Positions 1,694 to 49,151 of a DNA stretch of 49,200 nucleotides are shown here, one piece after another (position 1 is the first letter of the stretch; each line of letters opens with the position of its first letter). Under the pieces are notes generated by a model. The model was not told the DNA's origin, did not search any database, and was given only the letters and a program-made list of their open reading frames with translations. The position numbers and the translations under genes are program-made. This DNA is from a virus, in the IMG/VR virus record IMGVR_UViG_3300033180_000028, positions 1 to 49,200 of that record. One strand, given 5' to 3'.

Positions 1694-2752
1694 ATGCATG
1701 CAAATGGCGAGGCAGTGGAGCTCAATACGTTAAAAAAGCGGCTACAGGGCCACCTTGGGGATGGTCTAGTTTTGGTGATCGGCTCAGGGCTTTCATGTGC
1801 GGAGGGCGTTCCTGGCATGGGGCCGCTCGGTCGCCACCTTGTAACACACATTCCCTCAAGTTTATCCGATGACGATAATAAGCTGTGGGAGCAAATTCAC
1901 CCCTCTATCCAAACCGATGGACTTGAGGCGGCGCTATTAAAACATGTGCCTACGCCGTCACTTGAAGCCGCCATTGTACAGAGCACCGGCGAATTCATTG
2001 CAGCCGCCGAAGCGACTATCGTTGCAGAGATCTTTAGTAAAGCAAGGACGCTTCGCCTCACGAAGCTCATTCCTCATTTGCTAAGGCCTGACACCGGCAT
2101 TCCAATTGTTACGACAAACTATGACCGGCTTGCCGAGATCGCGTGTGAGGAAGCAGGTCTTGGTGTCGACACCATGTTCTCTGGTCAGTTCGCGGCAAAG
2201 CTGGAACCACAAGAAACATATTGGAGCTTCTGCCGCGGCGCGAAATTGGTAGGCAGGAATGTCCGCTACAAGTTCGCGAATAAGGCGAATGTGTTTAAGC
2301 CTCATGGAAGTCTTGATTGGTATCATAGGGAGGGCAGTCCTGTTCGCTATGCCGGCGTGCTTCCGCTTCCTCGCCTTATAATTACGCCAGGGTTGAATAA
2401 GTTCAGGAACGGTTACGAAAGTCCCTTTGACAAGCATCGTGAGAAAGGGAACGACGCCATAGACAAGGCAAGAAGGTTCCTGATCATTGGCTACGGGTTC
2501 AATGACGATCACCTGGAGACGCATCTCACGCCTCGCATCAGGTCCGGCGTGAAGACAGTTATATTGACCTACGAGCTATCACCGAAAGCTAAAACAATTT
2601 CGATAGAAAATAAGAATGTCGTGGCCATCGAGTTCCGCGAGACGGAAGGTATAAAAGGGGCCAATATTGTCGTTGATGGAGCCGAAATATTTTATCCCGG
2701 CATTGAATACTGGGATTTGGATGGATTTGTGAAGGGAGTTCTGTCGGCATGA
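1694..2752 (+). CDS. SIR2-like NADase of a SIR2-HerA defence system
   Basis: The 352-aa protein has a SIR2-type NAD-binding fold: VIGSGLS near residue 30 (glycine loop), TTNYD near 140 (the Asn of the NAD pocket) and PHGSLDW near 205 (the active-site His). In known SIR2-HerA systems this subunit degrades NAD+ on phage infection and aborts the cell. Its stop overlaps the next gene's start by 4 bp (ATGA), so it is translationally coupled to a HerA-type ATPase, the expected partner. GC content is lower and codon use less biased than in the phage structural genes, consistent with acquired cargo. The NADase activity is inferred from family membership. Confidence 0.88.
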   Translation: MHANGEAVELNTLKKRLQGHLGDGLVLVIGSGLSCAEGVPGMGPLGRHLVTHIPSSLSDDDNKLWEQIHPSIQTDGLEAALLKHVPTPSLEAAIVQSTGEFIAAAEATIVAEIFSKARTLRLTKLIPHLLRPDTGIPIVTTNYDRLAEIACEEAGLGVDTMFSGQFAAKLEPQETYWSFCRGAKLVGRNVRYKFANKANVFKPHGSLDWYHREGSPVRYAGVLPLPRLIITPGLNKFRNGYESPFDKHREKGNDAIDKARRFLIIGYGFNDDHLETHLTPRIRSGVKTVILTYELSPKAKTISIENKNVVAIEFRETEGIKGANIVVDGAEIFYPGIEYWDLDGFVKGVLSA

Positions 2753-4497
2753 CAAGTATAGCGCTCGAGTTTACTGATAATGACAAGATTGGGCGGGTGG
2801 CCGGTGTTGATACCAGCCGTGTGGCAATCGACGTCACAAATTCCGAGATGTTAACTCGTGTCGGGATCGGTCAGCTGATTGCCATTAAAGGTGCAACGCA
2901 GGCGGAATTTCTGATTGCGATGACCGACCGAGTGACTCGTTTACTTCGCGAGGAGCTTCCCGATCCAGAAGGGGGCGACTTTGCACCCCTGACGGTCTCA
3001 CCAGCGGATCACATGCAGGCGTTCGTCATTGGTACGTATCGCACGGTGGATGGTGATAGGGCCAATACCTTTAAGCGCGGAGCTGATAGCTTCCCCCAAA
3101 TTGATCGCGATTGTTTCGTCATTGAGGGGGGGAATCTTCAGCGCTTCATGGGTATCCTTGGAGCGGGTTTTCCGGAAGAAGAGAGATTAAAACTTGGCAC
3201 TTTCGTCGCCGATCGGAGCGCAGACGCAATCGCGAGCGGTGATCGTTTTTTCCAACGTCATGCAGCAATCCTGGGAAGTACTGGGTCTGGCAAAAGCTGG
3301 GCTGTCGCCCTCATTCTCGAAAGAGCGGCTAAGCTCAAATATCCCAACATCGTTGTTTTCGACATGCATGGGGAATATGAGCCACTTGCGGATAAGAGCA
3401 AAGGGGGCTTCGCGCAGCGGTTCCGGGTCGCGGGTCCTGGCGACCTCGCCGCGCCGAAAGATGACACGCTGTTTTTGCCATACTGGCTATTGAACCGCGA
3501 TGAAATGCTGTCAATGATATTGGACCGCAGCGATCAGAACGCTCCTAATCAGGCTTCTCGATTTACCCTTCATGTCCGTGATCTGAAGGGAGCGACGTTG
3601 GATAAGTCGGGCAAATCCAAGGTGAAAGAGACCTTTACAGTTGACTCGCCGATCCCATACAAAATCGAAGACCTCGTCGACAAACTTAAAGATGACAACA
3701 CCTCCAAAGGTATATCAGCGGCGACTGGTAAGCCCGTTACTGGTGAGTGGGAAAATAAGCTTACACGCTTCCTCTCTCGTCTCGAGGCGAAGCTGGATGA
3801 TCGCCGCTATGGGTTCATGTTCGCACCACCGGCGGAAGCCTTAGATTACGGATGGCTCGCCAAGCAAATTGTCAAGCTTTTGCGCGCGGATTCGGGCAAT
3901 GGGATAAAGGTGATCGATTTCTCGGAGGTTCCTGCAGATGTGCTTCCAGTCGTTACGGGAACGCTAGCTCGTCTCCTCTATGACGTACAATTTTGGATGA
4001 ACACCGATGCTCGGACGCCAGTCACTCTTCTGTGCGATGAAGCCCATTTGTACTTACCAGTAAAAGATGATGCTGATTCAGTTCAGAGACAGGCGCTATG
4101 GTCATTCGAGCGCATCGCGAAAGAGGGAAGAAAGTACGGATTTTCATTGCTTGTAGTAAGCCAAAGGCCCTCTGACGTGAGCAGGACTATTCTTTCTCAG
4201 TGTAATAACTTCCTTGCCTTGAGGTTGACGAACGACAGTGACCAGAACGTAATCAAGAGATTGATGCCAGACTCCCTCGTTGGCCTTACCGCTATGCTGC
4301 CGTTGCTCGATACTGGCGAGGCATTGCTGTTGGGCGACGCCGTCCTATTGCCAACTCGGATCAAGCTCGATCAACCGCAGGTGAAACCTGACAGCGCAAC
4401 GCGGGATTTCTGGAAGGAATGGGGCTCAATTATGCCTGATGAGGTGCTACTTGAAGCGGCGGTCGAATGTTTGCGTAGTCAGTCCCGGACAAGCTGA
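2749..4497 (+). CDS. HerA-like hexameric ATPase of the SIR2-HerA defence system
   Basis: The 582-aa protein starts with a HAS-barrel-like N-terminal segment (about 5-60). It has a Walker A motif GSTGSGKS at 176-183, a Walker B motif in LLCDEAH near 427-432, and a conserved SQRPSDVSRTILSQCNN segment near 475-490 that is typical of HerA/FtsK-clade DNA translocases. Together with the coupled SIR2 gene it forms the known SIR2-HerA anti-phage pair, in which the two proteins assemble into one complex. All motifs are intact and the length is normal for the family. Confidence 0.9.
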   Translation: MTSIALEFTDNDKIGRVAGVDTSRVAIDVTNSEMLTRVGIGQLIAIKGATQAEFLIAMTDRVTRLLREELPDPEGGDFAPLTVSPADHMQAFVIGTYRTVDGDRANTFKRGADSFPQIDRDCFVIEGGNLQRFMGILGAGFPEEERLKLGTFVADRSADAIASGDRFFQRHAAILGSTGSGKSWAVALILERAAKLKYPNIVVFDMHGEYEPLADKSKGGFAQRFRVAGPGDLAAPKDDTLFLPYWLLNRDEMLSMILDRSDQNAPNQASRFTLHVRDLKGATLDKSGKSKVKETFTVDSPIPYKIEDLVDKLKDDNTSKGISAATGKPVTGEWENKLTRFLSRLEAKLDDRRYGFMFAPPAEALDYGWLAKQIVKLLRADSGNGIKVIDFSEVPADVLPVVTGTLARLLYDVQFWMNTDARTPVTLLCDEAHLYLPVKDDADSVQRQALWSFERIAKEGRKYGFSLLVVSQRPSDVSRTILSQCNNFLALRLTNDSDQNVIKRLMPDSLVGLTAMLPLLDTGEALLLGDAVLLPTRIKLDQPQVKPDSATRDFWKEWGSIMPDEVLLEAAVECLRSQSRTS

Positions 4498-4540
4498 TTC
4501 GAAGATTGGGGCGGGCGCAGGCGAAGTCTAATTAAAACAG

Positions 4541-5578
4541 TTGCAGGTGAGTTCCGTCAGAGCGGTCTCAATTTTCGATATCCCAAAGTTCCTGTTGCCG
4601 GCTTTGGCGCTTTCTGGAACAGGGCTTGTCGCCAACCACTACTTTGCGATGAAAATGGTGCCCATGCATTTTACCAGCAGTGACACACGCCCACTCCCCC
4701 CCAATTCGCTGTTCAAATACCTCGCGCCAGAACGAGTCAGCGACGTTCTAGGGGCTGGAACTCTGAAATTCACTCAAATGTCGAACACCAATGACATTTT
4801 CGAGGTGCGAAAGACTTTTGAGCGCATTGCTGGCCCGCGTTTTCGCGAGTTAATTGCGAGCATAGAGGGAGACCTTGCCTCTAAACCCACCCTTGAAGCC
4901 AATATCATCAAGGCGCTTTCCGAGAGATTGGGAAGGGCGCCGAATCGGAAGGAGCGTCGTACAGCGCTCTCGGAATTTTACAAACAGGGAAAGGAAAAGC
5001 AATTTCGTGACGGGCTTGCTTTTGAGGCAAGCCAGCTCGCTGATCAATTCGGCTCGGACGAAGCTCGCGAATATTTTCTCGAATTGGTTGGCACCGGCAT
5101 GCTTTGTCTGTCTCTATCCGAGGATTTCGGCATTTCGCCGATGTGGGCGCATTACGCTAGCAATAGCACTGGTTTTGTAATCGAATTTTTCACGAACCAT
5201 TGGTGGTTCAAGAGCGAATCGGACGTGTCCAAAACCAGATTGCACCAAGTCCATTACAGCGATGGTATTATTGATGAGTTTCTTGAAAATCCAGAAGCAG
5301 CATTTGGCTCCAAAATGACGTCCTGGTCCTATGAGAAAGAGTGGAGAATGTATTGCAGCCTCGACCAAATAGAGAAAACTATACCTTTGCAGCCAGATCC
5401 AATCCATCTTATCGGGTTTCCGAGTGATTTGGTGAAGTCGATAATCGTCGGGTCGCGAGCGTCGATAGAAACGCGGACGCAAATTCAGACGGTGGTAGCG
5501 ACTCAATATCCGCATGCTAGCATCCATCTAGCCACACCAAATAATAGAACCAGCTTAATCGAACTTACCGATCTATAA
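4541..5578 (+). CDS. DUF2971-family protein, probable defence-island gene
   Basis: Of the 345 residues in the longest frame, the recognisable part begins at FKYLAPERV (about residue 58) and includes CLSLSEDFGISPMWAHYAS, the hallmark of DUF2971. Family members are common in defence islands, but their biochemical role is not settled. The start is uncertain. The TTG at 4541 gives a 36-residue, mildly hydrophobic extension with no clear Shine-Dalgarno, and ATG at 4649 (residue 37) is a good alternative. It lies 43 bp after the HerA gene on the same strand and could be a third cargo gene of the cassette or an independent one. Confidence 0.7.
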   Translation: MQVSSVRAVSIFDIPKFLLPALALSGTGLVANHYFAMKMVPMHFTSSDTRPLPPNSLFKYLAPERVSDVLGAGTLKFTQMSNTNDIFEVRKTFERIAGPRFRELIASIEGDLASKPTLEANIIKALSERLGRAPNRKERRTALSEFYKQGKEKQFRDGLAFEASQLADQFGSDEAREYFLELVGTGMLCLSLSEDFGISPMWAHYASNSTGFVIEFFTNHWWFKSESDVSKTRLHQVHYSDGIIDEFLENPEAAFGSKMTSWSYEKEWRMYCSLDQIEKTIPLQPDPIHLIGFPSDLVKSIIVGSRASIETRTQIQTVVATQYPHASIHLATPNNRTSLIELTDL

Positions 5579-10957: not shown

Positions 10958-11305
10958 TTACGTCAAATCGTCCAGGCTGATCATCAAAGCGCCAGCAATT
11001 GCTTTCAATGCTTCGATCGATCCCGCCTTTTTGCCGGTCTCGATCTCGGACACGTAGGGCTGAGACAGTCCGGTTTTCTCGGCAAGCTCGGCCATCGTCA
11101 TGCCGCGATGCTTGCGAAAAACACGTGCCGGGTTTTCGCCAGCGATCAGCGCCTTCACGACGTTGTCGGGCCAAGTCTCTTCGCCAGCGTCAATGCGTGC
11201 CTTGACGGCGCGGGCATCGACGATGTCGAGCAAATCTTCATAGTCCGCTTCGGGCATGAGCACGTAGCCCTTGCCTTCGATAGTGATGCGATTGATCTCG
11301 CCCAT
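10958..11305 (-). CDS. HTH_XRE antitoxin of a type II toxin-antitoxin pair
   Basis: 115 aa. The N-terminal half contains a Phd-like stretch (GYVLMPEADYEDLLDIVDA). The C-terminal half is an XRE helix-turn-helix (MTMAELAEKTGLSQPYVSEI, then GKKAGSIEALKAIAGAL). It lies 9 bp downstream of the RelE-like toxin gene on the same strand. Toxin-first order is typical of HigBA-like modules. It should neutralise the toxin and repress the operon by binding the inverted repeat upstream. Confidence 0.85.
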   Translation of the reverse strand: MGEINRITIEGKGYVLMPEADYEDLLDIVDARAVKARIDAGEETWPDNVVKALIAGENPARVFRKHRGMTMAELAEKTGLSQPYVSEIETGKKAGSIEALKAIAGALMISLDDLT

Positions 11306-11314
11306 GGTGGTCTC

Positions 11315-11560
11315 CTATTCCTTGTAGATATCGCCGCGCGGGCCGGCTTTGACAACCAATACCGTCATGGTCTGGTCATCGATGATGACGCGATCCTGAC
11401 CGACACGGATGCGGAAGAATTCGCTTCCTTGCAGTTTCTTCAGATCGACCGCTTCGCCATTCGCAAATGCTTCGACCTTTGCAACGATGGCGGCTGCGCG
11501 CTTCGGCTGCATTTTGCGAAGGGCTTTCGTGGCGTCCTTGCTGTAAGCGATCTTTTTCAT
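11315..11560 (-). CDS. RelE/ParE-family toxin
   Basis: 81 aa with the compact RelE fold signature: KKIAYSKDATKALRKMQP at the N-terminus, LKKLQGSEFFRIRVGQDRVI in the middle and VLVVKAGPRGDIYKE at the end. The conserved Arg residues in the FRIRVGQDRVI strand are typical of ribosome-dependent RNases. The first gene of the leftward pair, it has a TATATA -10-like element 7-15 bp before the start. The pair stands divergent from the replication initiator and would act as an addiction or prophage-stability module. Confidence 0.85.
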   Translation of the reverse strand: MKKIAYSKDATKALRKMQPKRAAAIVAKVEAFANGEAVDLKKLQGSEFFRIRVGQDRVIIDDQTMTVLVVKAGPRGDIYKE

Positions 11561-11643: not shown

Positions 11644-12864
11644 ATGAGCCAAGAATCTAACATCCGGCGCGGCGTGCGCAACTCGGGTTATGTCCCGATC
11701 CCGAACCGTGTCTTTGAAGATGATCGCCTCTCCATGGAAGCGCGCTGGCTGCTCGGCTACCTGCTTTCCAAGCCCGACAACTGGATCGTCGTTATCGGCG
11801 ATATCATGAAGAAGGGCGGCTGCGGGCGCGACAAAGCACGCAAGATGATCGGGGAGCTTGTCGAGTTTGGCTATGCCGAACGCGAGCAAGGGCGCGCTGA
11901 TGGCAAGTTCGGTGCGTCCATGCTGGTAATCTTTGACGAACCCCGCGCGTCCGCGTCGGATGATCAGTCCGGCCAGAACGAAAGTGTTGCATTTCTACCG
12001 CAGACTGAAATGCCGGCGCCGGTAAAACCGTCGCCGGTTTTGCCGGCGCCGGCAAAATCGGCACTTAGTAATAACTTATATCTAGCAAATACTGATTATC
12101 AGCAAGAGAGAGATGCGCGCGACGAAGGCTCGGAAGAAAAGCCCGAAGCCGTCGAGCGCGCTTTCCGTCGCTGGTATGCCAAATGGCCGACGCGGGACAA
12201 AGACAGCGAATATGCTGGCCGGAAGGCGTGGCAGAAGCTCTCGCAAGAGCAGCGCGCCGAATGCATCGCCAAATCTCCGACCTACATCGAGCGGGCCGAG
12301 AAAGCGAAAATATCGGTTCCGTGGGCCGGGGCTTACCTGACCGGGCGAGATTGGGAAAAGCTTGAGGACCCGAAGTCGGACGTTGCTCTGCCAATCGTCC
12401 ACAAGCCGTATTCGAGGGCATGGCACGCCGGACGTTGTGCCGAGTTGCTGAAACCCGCATCGGCCACGATGCCGGCATTGCCGCCGTTGCTCCGGTCCCT
12501 CGTGGCCGAAGGTGGCGAAAGGGCTGATGCCATCCTGCGGGACCGTCGCATCAAGCATGGCTGGCCGAAGGTCAACACCATGGATGAGCGCGTACAGGAC
12601 CGTAAGGGCATGACGGTTGCTCCGAACGTCTTCCGCGTCTCCGAAGGTTTCGACAGCGTTGGCCGCACTGGCGAGTTGTGCGCGGCATGGGAGCGGTTCT
12701 TTGCCAGAACCGGATTGCCATGGGTGCCAACGCCAGACGGGAACGTCGAACGTTTCTTTTTCCCGCCGGTCTCATCCGAAATCACTGACTTGGACGCGGC
12801 GGTTAGTGAGGCGTGGTTTGCATTTGAACGGCTAGTTAACGAGGGAATTTCCAATGATGCATAA
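11644..12864 (+). CDS. Phage replication initiator / helix-turn-helix protein (O-like)
   Basis: 406 aa. Residues ~15-95 form a winged-helix domain like those of phage replisome organisers (GYVPIPNRVFEDDRLSMEAR, GDIMKKGGCGRDKARKMIGE, YAEREQG). It is followed by a Pro-rich, low-complexity linker (about 115-140), then a helical segment (AFRRWYAKWPTRDKDSEYAG) and a C-terminal domain. A binding domain, a linker containing DNA repeats and a C-terminal interaction domain mirror lambda O, where the origin lies inside the gene. It probably recruits the host helicase to the phage origin. Confidence 0.65.
   Translation: MSQESNIRRGVRNSGYVPIPNRVFEDDRLSMEARWLLGYLLSKPDNWIVVIGDIMKKGGCGRDKARKMIGELVEFGYAEREQGRADGKFGASMLVIFDEPRASASDDQSGQNESVAFLPQTEMPAPVKPSPVLPAPAKSALSNNLYLANTDYQQERDARDEGSEEKPEAVERAFRRWYAKWPTRDKDSEYAGRKAWQKLSQEQRAECIAKSPTYIERAEKAKISVPWAGAYLTGRDWEKLEDPKSDVALPIVHKPYSRAWHAGRCAELLKPASATMPALPPLLRSLVAEGGERADAILRDRRIKHGWPKVNTMDERVQDRKGMTVAPNVFRVSEGFDSVGRTGELCAAWERFFARTGLPWVPTPDGNVERFFFPPVSSEITDLDAAVSEAWFAFERLVNEGISNDA
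12011..12102. other. ori: Candidate replication origin inside the initiator gene
   Basis: The segment has GC-rich repeats: CCGGCGCCGG (12013-12022), GGTAAAACCG opposed by CGGTTTTGCC (12021-12030/12035-12044), and a perfect 20-bp palindrome TTTTGCCGGCGCCGGCAAAA (12038-12057). Directly after it comes a ~39-bp AT-rich tract (12064-12102, for example TAGTAATAACTTATATCTAG). Repeats followed by an AT-rich unwinding element within the initiator's linker is the lambda ori layout. Function is inferred. Confidence 0.5.
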
Positions 12865-13549
12865 CGTGAAAACCTACGCCGCCTGCAAGACGGTTGATAC
12901 TACCCTCTACGACGCATCGAAGTTCGACGCTGTGCTTGATCGTGTCGTGGCGCGGAAGCGAATCAAGGCGACCATGCTCTCCATGGCATCCGAATCGCAC
13001 CCGTCGTTCGCCAGCAAGGCGGCGTGGTTTGCGATCCAGACCCCTGACCATCGTGAGCTGGTTGTAAAAAAACTTTTGGATGACGAAAAAATTGTCACGG
13101 CATTTCCGATGGTGCCGGGACCTCGCACCTACAAACGCGGACGAGTTTCTGAGGGCGAGAAGACGCCTTTGCTCGCCGGCTATCTCCTCATCAAAATTGT
13201 TCCGTCGCCCGCTGCCTTCGTTGGTCTGCGCCAAGTAAAAGGCGTGGTCGATATCGTTGGCGGGTGCGAAAAGCCGTGGCGTGTATCACAGGAAGATGTG
13301 AGCCGATTCATCGCTTTGACGGATCTGGAATTGCGCGCCGCTGCGGATTTTGAGTTCAATCTGGGCGACCGTGTGCTCTTCGGCTTCGGTCCTTTCAAGG
13401 GGATTGAGGGAGTGATTGAGAAGCTCCACGCGACCCGTCTGCATCGCAACGACAGCCCGGCTATGCTGCATGCTGACATCACAGCTTGCGTTCATGGACA
13501 ATGGCACAATCTCAAGCGTACCCCTCTTGCATTGCTCGAAAAGCTGTGA
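12854..13549 (+). CDS. NusG-family transcription (anti)termination protein
   Basis: 231 aa. After a ~55-residue N-terminal extension comes a NusG N-terminal-type domain (WFAIQTPDHRELVVKKLL at about 58-75, TAFPMVPGPRTYKRG, LAGYLLIKI). The C-terminal part carries a KOW-like motif (NLGDRVLFGFGPFKGIEGVI, about 170-190). NusG paralogues such as RfaH bind elongating RNA polymerase and make it ignore terminators in selected operons. The start overlaps the initiator gene by 11 bp. It lies immediately upstream of a folded leader with an intrinsic terminator and then the whole late operon, so a late antiterminator role is inferred. Confidence 0.75.
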   Translation: MMHNVKTYAACKTVDTTLYDASKFDAVLDRVVARKRIKATMLSMASESHPSFASKAAWFAIQTPDHRELVVKKLLDDEKIVTAFPMVPGPRTYKRGRVSEGEKTPLLAGYLLIKIVPSPAAFVGLRQVKGVVDIVGGCEKPWRVSQEDVSRFIALTDLELRAAADFEFNLGDRVLFGFGPFKGIEGVIEKLHATRLHRNDSPAMLHADITACVHGQWHNLKRTPLALLEKL

Positions 13550-13550
13550 C

Positions 13551-13759
13551 TAGAAAGGGTCAGGTTGATCTGATGATCTCGGTTAGCGTTTGACCCGCCC
13601 GACAAGAACGGGCCGGAAGTGAGGCAAGAGCCTCCGCGTGGGTAAACCAGTCAGACCCTGCTTGAATGGCCTCGTTGGAGGCATCGATTCAAGCCCGGTG
13701 CTACTGCATTGAAAAAATCATCATCATGTCGAAGGCGGTCCAGAGTGATCGCCTTTTCT
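13551..13759 (+). ncRNA. Structured non-coding leader RNA before the late genes
   Basis: This 209-base gap contains successive hairpins: GGGTCA/TGACCC (13557-13562 with 13591-13596) enclosing GATC-TGAT-GATC; GCCCG/CGGGC (13597-13601 with 13609-13613); GAGGC-AAGA-GCCTC (13621-13634); and a long two-part hairpin, GCTTGAAT/ATTCAAGC (13660-13667 with 13687-13694), around GCCTC-GTTG-GAGGC. It ends in a strong intrinsic terminator. A possible promoter (TTGCAT at 13527, TAGAAA at 13551, 18-bp spacing) precedes it. No reading frame fits. It could be an antitermination leader or a free small RNA. No known RNA family is recognised. Confidence 0.6.
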
Positions 13760-13760
13760 G
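13732..13760 (+). terminator. Intrinsic terminator ending the leader RNA
   Basis: AAGGCGGTC (13732-13740) pairs with GATCGCCTT (13747-13755) in a 9-bp stem with one G-U pair, around a 6-base loop, followed by TTTTCTGTTTC. It lies 24 bp before the first late gene, so late transcription from upstream must read through it or start after it. Confidence 0.85.
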
Positions 13761-13783
13761 TTTCCCATAGGTAGGGCCTGCCG

Positions 13784-14353
13784 ATGACCGCGCTATCCAT
13801 GCAATGGGTTGACCGCAACCTGTCGGAGTACGGCAAGCGTATCGGTGCGCTGAAAGAGCGCTTCCCGAAAGTTCTGCCGCGCATCGTCAATCAGGTCGGC
13901 AATCGCGCCAAGACCGTTGTCATTCGCGAGCTGACGAAGCAAACCGGCCTGCCGCGTGCCACCATCGTCAGAGCCATTGGCAACCCATCGGCGGCGCGGC
14001 CCGGCAAACTCTACTACGACATGACGACGCAAGGCGGGAACATTCGTTTGAAGTTTCTGCGCCCGAAGGAAACGCCGGCTGGCGTGGTGGCGCGTCCGTT
14101 CGGTAAGCCAACGCTCTATCCCGGATCGTTTATGCGGGGTGGTCTCTTCCCCGACCGCAAGGACGTTCCACGGTTCAACGGGCATGTCTTCTATCGCCTG
14201 AACAGATCGGGCACCAAGATCACCTTTGCGCGGTCGGGCGTATTTATCCCGAAGGAAATGACGACGGGCGCAACCTCTGCTGCCTTCCATCGGCTCGCAG
14301 CGCCGTTGCTCAAGGAACGGGTCGAAGCCGCCTTGAACAAGCTGGTCCCCTGA
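13784..14353 (+). CDS. Minor tail protein Z-like (GPZ) protein
   Basis: 189 aa, basic. The N-terminal region (about 15-65: RFPKVLPRIVNQVGNRAKTV, then ELTKQTGLPRATIVRAIG) matches the pattern of the prophage minor tail protein Z family, whose members sit in tail/neck assembly. The C-terminal half is beta-rich (NIRLKFLRPKETPAGVVA, GTKITFARSGVFIPKEM). It is the first gene after the leader terminator and precedes the terminase genes, an unusual place for a tail gene. The family assignment is moderate. Confidence 0.55.
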   Translation: MTALSMQWVDRNLSEYGKRIGALKERFPKVLPRIVNQVGNRAKTVVIRELTKQTGLPRATIVRAIGNPSAARPGKLYYDMTTQGGNIRLKFLRPKETPAGVVARPFGKPTLYPGSFMRGGLFPDRKDVPRFNGHVFYRLNRSGTKITFARSGVFIPKEMTTGATSAAFHRLAAPLLKERVEAALNKLVP

Positions 14354-14532
14354 CAGGGGCCACCCCCTCGACCCCTCCGGGCCGGGCACCCCCCACCCCC
14401 CCATTCAGGGACCGGTTTGCCGACATCTTCCATGGACGGGCCTGGGGGACTGCGGGATTTCGCCAGTAGCACTTTCGAAAAGCGGTACACGGATACACGT
14501 TCTGCACGCGTGTGGATGCACGGATGGATTTG
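14354..14532. other. Non-coding segment before terminase, cos/pac candidate
   Basis: No gene is seen. The first part (14354-14410) is extremely C-rich with several poly-C runs. The last part has CACG repeated at 14488, 14496, 14505 and 14519, iteron-like and directly upstream of the small terminase gene. Packaging signals of lambda-like phages lie at this position (cos next to Nu1). The assignment rests on position and repeats only. Confidence 0.35.
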
Positions 14533-15168
14533 ATGACCGAGGAATGGATATCGATCACCGACGCCGCCGCTCGCTTGAGCGCAGTCGGTGACCGGATCGA
14601 CCGCTCGACGCTGTCGCGCTATCTGAAACAACATGCCGAGGCTCTGCCGCTAAAGGCGGACGGCAAATCGAACCTTGTCGAATTTGGCGCACTCGTTGCC
14701 CATCGCAGCGAGAATATCCGTATCAGGACGGAGGTGGCTCCGCTGTTCGTCCAGCCGGCCGGTGCGTCAGCTGCGGCCTCAATGCCATCTGCACCGCCGC
14801 CCCGTCTTAAGGGCACGCAATCAGACGGTGCCGCCCGTAAGGCGCAGGCGGAGGCCGAGCTGAAGGAAATGGACCTTGCCGAGCGTCGCGGCGAATTGAC
14901 CATCGTTGCGGAGGTCGATCAGGGCGGGCGCGATGCAATCGCTCTGATGCAGAGCGCATTCGAGCGCGCCATTGAAACGGAAGCCGCCGGCTTGTCCCTC
15001 AAATACGGATGGGATGAGCGCATGGCCCGTCTCGCGCTCAAAGGCTTTGCGAGGGAGGGCTTGAGCGTCTTCAACCGCGAAATCCTGAAGAGGCTCGACG
15101 GAATGCGGCGGCAGTCCGAAGCGGGCGGCGATGGCCAATACCATGAAACAGGGCAGGCTTTGCAGTGA
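14533..15168 (+). CDS. Terminase small subunit (Nu1-like)
   Basis: 211 aa from ATG 14533. ATG 14524 and GTG 14512 are in frame and possible. Residues 1-40 contain a winged-helix DNA-binding domain (EEWISITDAAARLS, then RIDRSTLSRYLKQH), as in lambda Nu1. A Pro/Ala-rich linker (about 75-95) and a long helical region follow (AQAEAELKEMDLAERRGEL), which typically contacts the large subunit. It would recognise the packaging site. The stop overlaps the large-subunit start (GTGA). Confidence 0.8.
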   Translation: MTEEWISITDAAARLSAVGDRIDRSTLSRYLKQHAEALPLKADGKSNLVEFGALVAHRSENIRIRTEVAPLFVQPAGASAAASMPSAPPPRLKGTQSDGAARKAQAEAELKEMDLAERRGELTIVAEVDQGGRDAIALMQSAFERAIETEAAGLSLKYGWDERMARLALKGFAREGLSVFNREILKRLDGMRRQSEAGGDGQYHETGQALQ

Positions 15169-17276
15169 GCTTTCACGATCTCCGGGCACAGTTTCCAGAG
15201 CTGTCAAATGGCGCAGCTATCCTCTTTGGGGGCTTGGCCGCAGCAAGCCGTCCGGCGGAGGATTTGACGATAAGCGAGTTTGCTGATCGTCATCGCAAGG
15301 TTTCGCCGGAATCGGGTTCGCCCTGGCCCGGCGACTTTCGCACCGACCGTGTGCCATACCTGCGCGAGCCGCAGGATTGCTTGCATCCCGATCATCCGGC
15401 CCGGCGCGTGACATGCCGATGGGCCGCGCAGCTTGGAAAATCGACCGCAATCGAAAACTGGTTCTGCTTCATCGTAGACCAGGCGCCCGGTTCGATGATG
15501 ATCGTTCTGCCGACGCTCGAAGAGGCAACCAAGTTCAACCGCATCAAGCTTCAGCCGACCATTGAGGCTTCGAAGCGCATTGCGCACAAGGTCTTGCCGG
15601 TCAACAGCCGTGACGAGCAGGGAAGTACCACGTCGTTCAAGCGCTATGCCGGCGGCTTTTGCCAGATCGTCAATGCAGGCTCCTCCAAGGGCTTGCAGAT
15701 GGTATCGATCAAATATCTCGCGATGGACGAGGTGACCGGCTATCCGAAGGACGTGGACGGTCGCGGTAGCCCTCGCGATCAGGCCCGCGCCCGTCAGAAG
15801 ATGTATGGCGATCTCGCAAAAGAGTGGCAGGGTTCCACGCCGGGCATAGCGGGTGAATGCGCGATCTCGGACGACTTCGAAAGCGGCGACCAGCGTTTCC
15901 GTTACATGCCTTGCCCACATTGTGACATCTATCAGCCGATCACCTTCGACATGATGCGCGGCGCTGACAAGGAACGAGGGCTACCGGTTCACGTTCGATG
16001 CATGCGCTGCGATGGTGTGATCCTCGACGGTCACAAGCGGGAGATGGAAGAGCGGGCACACTGGATTGCCCGCCGAGTCCAAGAAGGTGAAGAGCCGGTT
16101 CCGCTTGAGATTGCGGCGGACGAAATAGGTGATTGGATTTGCCCGCCCTGCGAAGGGCGATGCCGCGACTGGCAACCGAGCTATCATTTATGGGCAGGAT
16201 ATGCGGTTCGCGAAAAGTGGACGGACATCTGGCAGCGATGGGTAGATGCGCAAGGCGATACCACGAAGCTGAAGGCGTTCTATCAGCAGGATTTGGCGGA
16301 GCCGTACGATCCGGGCGGCGTGACGGTCGAATGGGAAAAGATCGTCGATGCCGCCAGAGACGAGATGATCCCAACCGGTATCGTACCGTCGTGGGCAGCG
16401 TTGCTTGTCTCCGCCGCCGATGTTCAGGGGTACGGCATCAAGTGGGGTGTCTATGCCATCGGTCCGCGTGAGCAATATTGCCTCGTAGACCGGGAGATTT
16501 TCGAGGGTGCGCCCGATCAGAGCGACGAGCCTTGGATCAAGTTGTCCGACGCCTTGAGCCGGACCTACCCGACATCAGGCGGGCGCGAAAAGGGGATTGA
16601 CCTTTCAGGCGTCGATTCCGGCTGGTCAACCGACCGTGTCTATCGCTTCTGCGTTGGCCGTCCGAATGTCATTCCGCTTGATGGTCGCGAGCCTATCGGC
16701 CTCCCATGGCTTGGCACTCCCGTAAAAAAGGATGTCAAAGACCATCGCAAGCGAGTGATTGCCAAGGTCTTGCTCTATCCCGTTGGCCTCTATGACGTGA
16801 AAACCGCCGTGACTGCGGCGCTCGCCAATCTCGTCCAGGGTGCCAATGAGGCCGGACAATGGCCGCGCGGCACCATCCATTTTGCAGCGAACCTTTGCGA
16901 TCCCGATTTCGCCAAGGAATTAACCGCTGAAGTTCTGGTGGACGAGGAAGAGGAAGCGCGGGCAAGCCTTAGCCGAAGGGCGAGGCGGCTGGTCAATCCG
17001 AAGGCCGGGCGGAAGTGGAAGAAGATCAACGGTCGCATGAACGACTGGTTCGATATGACCGTCTACGCCTATGCCCTCGGCTGGCACCTTCAGAACAAGC
17101 GAAAGCTGACGATAGACCGGTGGGCCGACCTTGTGCGCGAGCTGCACGGGGAGCCGGAACAGGCGGGCGATCTGTTCGATTTGGCCGACCTAAGCCCATT
17201 CAGCAAGCAACAACAACAGCCGGCTTCGCCATCTGGAAAGCCGCGTCAACGCAAGCGTTGGGGGTCATACTCATGA
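15165..17276 (+). CDS. Terminase large subunit (lambda gpA family)
   Basis: 703 aa, starting at GTG 15165 coupled to the small subunit. The packaging ATPase has a Walker A-like CRWAAQLGKST near residue 87 and Walker B in YLAMDEVTG near 190. The nuclease half has a Cys-rich stretch (YMPCPHCDIY, VRCMRCDGV) and the acidic residues of the gpA endonuclease (VSAADVQGYGIKW, VDSGWSTDRVY). Length and motif order match the lambda gpA group rather than the P2 gpP group. It cuts concatemers and drives DNA into the prohead. Confidence 0.93.
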   Translation: MSFHDLRAQFPELSNGAAILFGGLAAASRPAEDLTISEFADRHRKVSPESGSPWPGDFRTDRVPYLREPQDCLHPDHPARRVTCRWAAQLGKSTAIENWFCFIVDQAPGSMMIVLPTLEEATKFNRIKLQPTIEASKRIAHKVLPVNSRDEQGSTTSFKRYAGGFCQIVNAGSSKGLQMVSIKYLAMDEVTGYPKDVDGRGSPRDQARARQKMYGDLAKEWQGSTPGIAGECAISDDFESGDQRFRYMPCPHCDIYQPITFDMMRGADKERGLPVHVRCMRCDGVILDGHKREMEERAHWIARRVQEGEEPVPLEIAADEIGDWICPPCEGRCRDWQPSYHLWAGYAVREKWTDIWQRWVDAQGDTTKLKAFYQQDLAEPYDPGGVTVEWEKIVDAARDEMIPTGIVPSWAALLVSAADVQGYGIKWGVYAIGPREQYCLVDREIFEGAPDQSDEPWIKLSDALSRTYPTSGGREKGIDLSGVDSGWSTDRVYRFCVGRPNVIPLDGREPIGLPWLGTPVKKDVKDHRKRVIAKVLLYPVGLYDVKTAVTAALANLVQGANEAGQWPRGTIHFAANLCDPDFAKELTAEVLVDEEEEARASLSRRARRLVNPKAGRKWKKINGRMNDWFDMTVYAYALGWHLQNKRKLTIDRWADLVRELHGEPEQAGDLFDLADLSPFSKQQQQPASPSGKPRQRKRWGSYS

Positions 17277-49073: not shown

Positions 49074-49119
49074 TTGGCGCACCCGACAGGATTCGAACCT
49101 GTGACCTTTGGAATCGGAA
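49074..49119. repeat. attR: attR: 46-bp direct repeat within tRNA-Arg
   Basis: Identical to 99-144 over 46 bases. It covers the 3' half of the tRNA gene, including the anticodon, so recombination leaves a functional tRNA on this side. Confidence 0.92.
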
Positions 49120-49151
49120 TCCAACACTCTATCCAGCTGAGCTACGGGTGC
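49075..49151 (-). tRNA. tRNA-Arg (anticodon CCG)
   Basis: 77 bases including an encoded CCA. Read on the minus strand: acceptor GCACCCG pairs with CGGGTGC; D-arm GCTC-AGCTGGATA-GAGT; anticodon stem TTGGA/TCCAA with loop TTCCGAT, giving anticodon CCG (codon CGG); T-arm ACAGG-TTCGAAT-CCTGT. All stems close. It is the integration target of the prophage. Confidence 0.95.

Follow-up and report, generated by a model that had tools for sequence, protein, structure and literature searches.

A NusG paralogue and a structured leader RNA form a probable late-gene antitermination module in Rhizobiaceae prophages

Introduction

Phage lambda controls its late genes through a compact arrangement in which the gene for the regulator Q ends the early operon and is followed by the late promoter pR', a leader of ~200 nt, the terminator tR' and the late genes, and Q recognises DNA. 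Processive antitermination has also been tied to structured leaders, as in the put RNA of phage HK022, for which we know of no dedicated protein partner. RfaH, a NusG paralogue, activates a long operon. The EAR RNA of epsC is a further structured leader tied to processive antitermination (PMC2864571). LoaP, also a NusG paralogue, depends on an RNA hairpin for readthrough of intrinsic terminators and has been called the sole known RNA-associating bacterial NusG-like protein (PMC12691694).

Here we describe a locus that shares features with several of these systems, in a viral DNA of 49,200 nt (positions 1-49,200 of IMG/VR record IMGVR_UViG_3300033180_000028, hereafter the window). As for LoaP and the dfn/mln leader hairpin of Bacillus, the gene of the NusG paralogue adjoins its putative target operon, whose leader contains a folded RNA and then an intrinsic terminator, and the readthrough of such terminators reported for LoaP (PMC12691694) is the role that we infer for the phage protein. 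The two systems differ in that the genes concerned here are phage late genes in Alphaproteobacteria, that the RNA is much larger (helices P1 to P6) and that its last hairpin carries a different loop, whereas the LoaP leader hairpin is of UNCG type. The layout is that of lambda Q, with a candidate late promoter (recognised by conservation only), a terminator within ~200 nt and the late genes, but the protein has a NusG fold and no Q-like match, and the RNA structure is conserved. RfaH is resembled in the putative switching on of a long operon; on the other hand, the ops element is missing from the leaders, the protein falls below the RfaH cut-off and its C-terminal domain is predicted to be a beta-barrel rather than an autoinhibiting alpha-hairpin. 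The leaders also lack the boxA of lambda N/nut systems, and the leader of the window and those of four relatives match no Rfam family, EAR included.

The module is Q-like in layout and LoaP-like in its parts, belongs to neither family, and most likely serves processive antitermination of late genes. In the open-licence literature searched, neither a mechanism nor a leader RNA or promoter is described for phrog_6386, the phage protein cluster concerned, and a phage NusG late switch is likewise not described. The prophage NusG, RNA and terminator look like an undescribed on-switch for virion genes whose protein is unlike lambda Q.

Results and discussion

A NusG paralogue between the replication gene and the late genes

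The nusG-like gene (12854-13549, plus strand) encodes a protein of 231 residues, and its start is overlapped by the 3' end of a gene for a replication-initiation-like HTH protein (11644-12864, plus strand; phrog_270, E 9e-29), which is the same neighbour in the relatives. Between its stop codon and the first late gene lie 234 non-coding bases (13550-13783), and then come genes for a tail completion/Neck1 protein (13784-14353, plus strand; phrog_27, E 6e-16) and the terminase subunits TerS and TerL gpA (14512-17276, plus strand; phrog_57 and GpA_ATPase/GpA_nuclease), followed by the remaining late region (17277-40230, plus strand) with head protease, major head protein, tail genes including a tail protein, and tape measure. 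The ~26 kb of head and tail genes announced in the original prediction are thus present, all of them co-directional from 13784 to about 40230.

The same prediction had called the product of 12854-13549 a NusG paralogue, and this assignment is upheld. The protein matches Pfam NusG (E 3e-13), and its phage cluster by sequence is phrog_6386, "transcription antiterminator" (E 1e-26), a model that matches housekeeping NusG too. Its nearest solved structures, by profile and by fold, are NusG and RfaH; the E. coli NusG structure is matched over 170 residues (E 2e-34), with the NGN-then-KOW order that defines the NusG/Spt5 superfamily. An AlphaFold model built with 45 relatives as input predicts NGN and KOW domains confidently (mean pLDDT 90.9), preceded by an N-terminal extension of ~50 residues with a long helix. 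Judged by these matches, the protein is a NusG paralogue with NGN and KOW domains. It reaches the cut-off of none of the described subfamilies that we compared, scoring 32.9 bits against 135.7 for housekeeping NusG (NCBIfam nusG), 33.4 against 125 for LoaP (NF033641), 35.1 against 144.5 for RfaH (TIGR01955) and 43.9 against 100 for UpxY (NF033644), for which the relative in L011 scored 74.8. Among Pfam and PHROG profiles NusG-type families alone were matched, and no Q protein family. In one host genome (G001) a housekeeping-type NusG match was found besides the phage-type one.

A conserved candidate promoter element and an intrinsic terminator

When the DNA of the relatives was aligned on the NusG stop codon, a conservation peak was seen at CCTCTTGC, within the C-terminal Pro-Leu-Ala codons of the gene. 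The Leu codon at this place is CTT in 100 out of 100 representatives, while CTT makes up 16.8% of the other Leu codons of the same genes, and ATTGC, GTTGC or TTGAC is retained where the residue or the reading frame differs. The rhizobial -35 consensus is CTTGAC, and the conserved TTGC/TTGAC is best read as a -35 element, in the window TTGCAT at 13527-13532 (plus strand), pointing to a separate promoter for the leader. This element, lying inside the end of the nusG-like gene, had been missed by the original prediction. The candidate -10, CTAGAA (13550-13555, plus strand), stands at a 17-nt spacer from it; it is weak, only moderately conserved in the relatives and of two forms (GAGTCAtt and cTACAAAt), and for this reason the start of the transcript is uncertain. 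With the 17-nt spacer, transcription would begin just 5' of the conserved GGAYGA of the leader RNA.

At the other end of the leader, an intrinsic terminator with a 10-pair stem (13731-13756) and a T-rich tail (to 13761, plus strand) is the top-ranked terminator-like site between 10 and 20 kb of the window. Of 115 related leaders 103 contain a terminator, in most cases 10-30 nt beyond P6, as opposed to 59 of 306 control stretches, in agreement with the strong terminator originally proposed. We also considered an antiterminator hairpin opposing it, and rejected this candidate: the longest match between terminator arm and leader averages 4.77 nt, against 4.78 nt after shuffling, and complementarity at chance level argues against a switch by competing hairpins. 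Neither boxA nor ops (GGCGGTAG) was found in any of 118 leaders.

A leader RNA with covarying helices

The non-coding stretch 13550-13783 folds with -87.8 kcal/mol (z -2.7; 1 of 200 shuffled sequences was equally stable), as expected from the folded leader of the original prediction, which had also proposed that compensatory changes should preserve the stems in related prophages. This comparison has now been made and the stems are indeed preserved. In a MAFFT alignment of 34 leaders, on which covariance model R1 was based, 102 helix cells were changed on both sides, against 35 in shuffled alignments, and sliding the partner strand by one column halved the pairing. R1 matches the window at 13561-13711 (plus strand; 79.9 bits) and recovers the leader in nearly all loci that were not used to build it, the strongly diverged PPF1-like and short-leader groups among them; in the short-leader class the distance from the stop codon to the search pattern is ~90 nt and the central region is ~45 nt shorter, yet the leaders are matched to the whole of R1. 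Among 87 distinct R1 matches the both-side changes numbered 381, against 127 in shuffles. Under a tree-aware null all seven significant column pairs of this 87-row alignment fall within the proposed structure, although the alignment was fitted to R1 and is hence biased towards that structure; in the unfitted 34-row MAFFT alignment one structural pair was significant by the same procedure, which has low power there, and five of the six top-scoring pairs were structural.

The strongest covariation is that of P1, a long-range helix (TCTGAT at 13569-13574 pairing with GTCAGA at 13650-13655, plus strand) that encloses the variable central hairpins. In P1 99.5% of cells are paired, and four of the six pairs show compensatory changes, including GC/UA and UA/CG swaps. 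It is followed by the P5 hairpin (13660-13694, plus strand), with an outer stem (13660-13665/13689-13694), an inner stem (13669-13673/13678-13682) and an asymmetric internal loop, and by the mini-hairpin P6 (13696-13711, plus strand), whose columns RGTGC-NNNN-GC..TG are near-invariant in the leader alignments, with a loop conserved as GAAA, GCAA or UACU type. We propose P6 as the recognition element; since it hardly varies, covariation can judge neither P6 nor whether it acts as RNA or DNA. From the substitution patterns we conclude that the fold of the leader RNA is real. No Rfam family scored above its gathering threshold for the leader of the window or for those of four relatives; Rhizobiales-1, an unassigned motif of 2010 (PMC2864571), has no Rfam entry.

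Recurrence in rhizobial prophages

Relatives of the NusG paralogue with 27-42% protein identity occur in Rhizobium phage PPF1, Sinorhizobium phages phi2LM21 and phi3LM21, Mesorhizobium phage P1 and several plasmid-form prophages, and wherever the record extends far enough the replication gene is followed by NusG and, after a short gap, by the late genes. When the two 3' leader hairpins were turned into a DNA pattern, without use of protein information, it was found in at least 120 stretches of the viral collection and in 57 stretches of genomes, the latter almost all from Rhizobiaceae. With all loci combined there were 195 places among the matches listed, and among these this NusG lies directly upstream in 181 of the 184 places that have at least 270 nt of upstream sequence. 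The matches L141, L164 and L189, on contigs named Nitrosomonas, Bacillus and Lachnospiraceae and without this NusG upstream, were judged to be chance matches of the pattern, and an apparent insert between NusG and leader in L064 and L138 proved to be an artefact of domain splitting, NusG being directly upstream on re-reading.

A separate search with the covariance model covered 199 genomes of the host family; 19 of these together contain 22 copies, 21 of which adjoin this NusG. Across 385 genomes of the class there was a single strong match, in the centre genome itself, besides two weak ones without NusG; therefore the system seems to be centred on Rhizobiaceae and near relatives.

Some loci depart from the common form. 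Five relatives of this NusG (L261, L262, L263, L265 and L267) mostly carry TTGC close to the end of the gene and have a leader with a P1-like helix; they lack P6, the first 260 nt hold no clear intrinsic terminator, and they perhaps represent a simpler form of the system. In L257, L258 and L259 ~200 nt 3' of nusG are shared and then diverge abruptly near the same point, and P6 is absent; these are possibly decayed prophages or mark an insertion boundary. In a Rhizobium rhizoryzae plasmid-prophage (L017, 6577-6790) NusG, -35 and terminator are present and an altered 3' hairpin replaces P6. A degenerate leader-like copy lies in a 3.1 Mb genome (L273, G163:C131:6625-6763), with no NusG detected in the surrounding 3.5 kb. 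"Nostoc phage Nsp-JY10" (L018, PP395642.1) has a rhizobial-type replication gene, NusG and leader in a design very near that of Sinorhizobium prophages, and the phage may really belong to a rhizobium present in the Nostoc culture.

Joint divergence of protein and leader

Distances between NusG proteins and between leaders are correlated (0.49, 92 loci), whereas the overlapping upstream replication gene is correlated with neither (leader 0.07, NusG 0.06). Between NusG and leader the partial correlation is 0.49 and the maximum in 500 permutations was 0.14, although close linkage could account for part of this joint divergence. Large late genes of at least two unrelated kinds, and several different first late genes, are found 3' of the cassette. 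Together, joint divergence and the varied downstream genes indicate that NusG and leader behave as one exchangeable unit. These results, with the order recurring in ~180 loci in front of unrelated late modules, lend strong support to the late switch put forward in the original prediction; its description as unlike lambda Q holds for the parts, a NusG fold and a complex RNA, and fails for the layout, which is Q-like.

Proposed mechanism and alternative explanations

It is reasonable to suppose, with a probability of roughly three in four, that the module serves late-gene antitermination of Rhizobiaceae prophages, the phage NusG and the leader RNA carrying polymerase past the terminator. The transcript would start from a late promoter whose 5' part lies in the last codons of the nusG-like gene, and its first ~150 nt would fold into P1, enclosing the variable hairpins, then P5 and then P6. 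As long as the phage NusG is absent, polymerase would go no further than the intrinsic terminator, 10-30 nt past P6, leaving the head and tail genes off. Once the early operon supplies the paralogue, its NGN domain would bind RNA polymerase, as extrapolated from the family, while the protein reads the leader RNA, and the polymerase so modified would pass the terminator and transcribe the late operon of ~26 kb. Promoter activity, contact between NusG and RNA, terminator readthrough and processivity are all inferred steps, recruitment by the leader RNA being proposed because of the joint divergence and the precedent of LoaP.

The main alternative to recruitment through RNA is a DNA mode like that of RfaH at ops, in which the NusG paralogue would be recruited via DNA of the transcription bubble, with P6 as the site in DNA for recognition and pausing and the remaining RNA as an accessory. 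P6 is near-invariant and, like ops DNA, forms a small hairpin, and RfaH structures are among the fold matches. However, the ops sequence itself was found in none of the leaders, the helices that covary are located 5' of P6 and function at the RNA level, and the predicted beta-barrel of the C-terminal domain differs from the helical hairpin of free RfaH. We therefore regard this mode as unlikely, if still the best of the alternatives. Somewhat less probable again is that the leader RNA, like put of HK022, acts in cis and by itself modifies RNA polymerase, with the adjacent NusG-like gene acting elsewhere. As with put, transcription would start very close to the RNA, and the RNA is elaborate, conserved and free of boxA; against this, it adjoins this NusG in nearly all the places counted above, and its divergence tracks that of NusG and not that of the other adjacent gene.

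It is very improbable that the unit makes a stable small RNA comparable to lambda 6S RNA, with the late genes read from elsewhere: a promoter-like element, a folded RNA of ~200 nt and a terminator could form such a closed unit, but it directly precedes late genes of unrelated type and diverges jointly with NusG. A ligand-sensing riboswitch or an attenuator with an alternative hairpin opposing the terminator would equally be a structured leader ending in a terminator, and is hardly credible given the shuffled-level complementarity of the terminator arm and the absence of an Rfam match.

On the preferred reading, antitermination by the phage NusG and its leader RNA, the odds appear about even that this is a family of RNA-reading NusG paralogues, the second after LoaP, which replaces Q as the master switch of virion genes. 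The protein would be a candidate for the first RNA-reading NusG in phages and in Proteobacteria, and its leader RNA far exceeds the LoaP hairpin in size. If true, the module is a widespread and compact second case of such a paralogue in culturable rhizobial prophages; it would explain how late genes are turned on in this group of temperate phages and add a Q analogue of different descent, and the ~100 diverged leaders offer material for how a NusG paralogue selects its RNA.

Other features of the window

Beside the integrase gene, a SIR2 and HerA pair (1694-5578; PADLOC SIR2 E 2e-180, HerA E 9e-235) is of a known defence pair type, and the next gene matches the PADLOC candidate PDC-S31. On the minus strand, opposite to the early operon, an HTH antitoxin-like ORF lies beside a small RelE/ParE-like ORF (10958-11560), and, with the translations judged by eye, these are a possible toxin-antitoxin pair. 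At its right-hand end the window has a tRNA gene (49078-49151, minus strand), a possible attachment site of the prophage.
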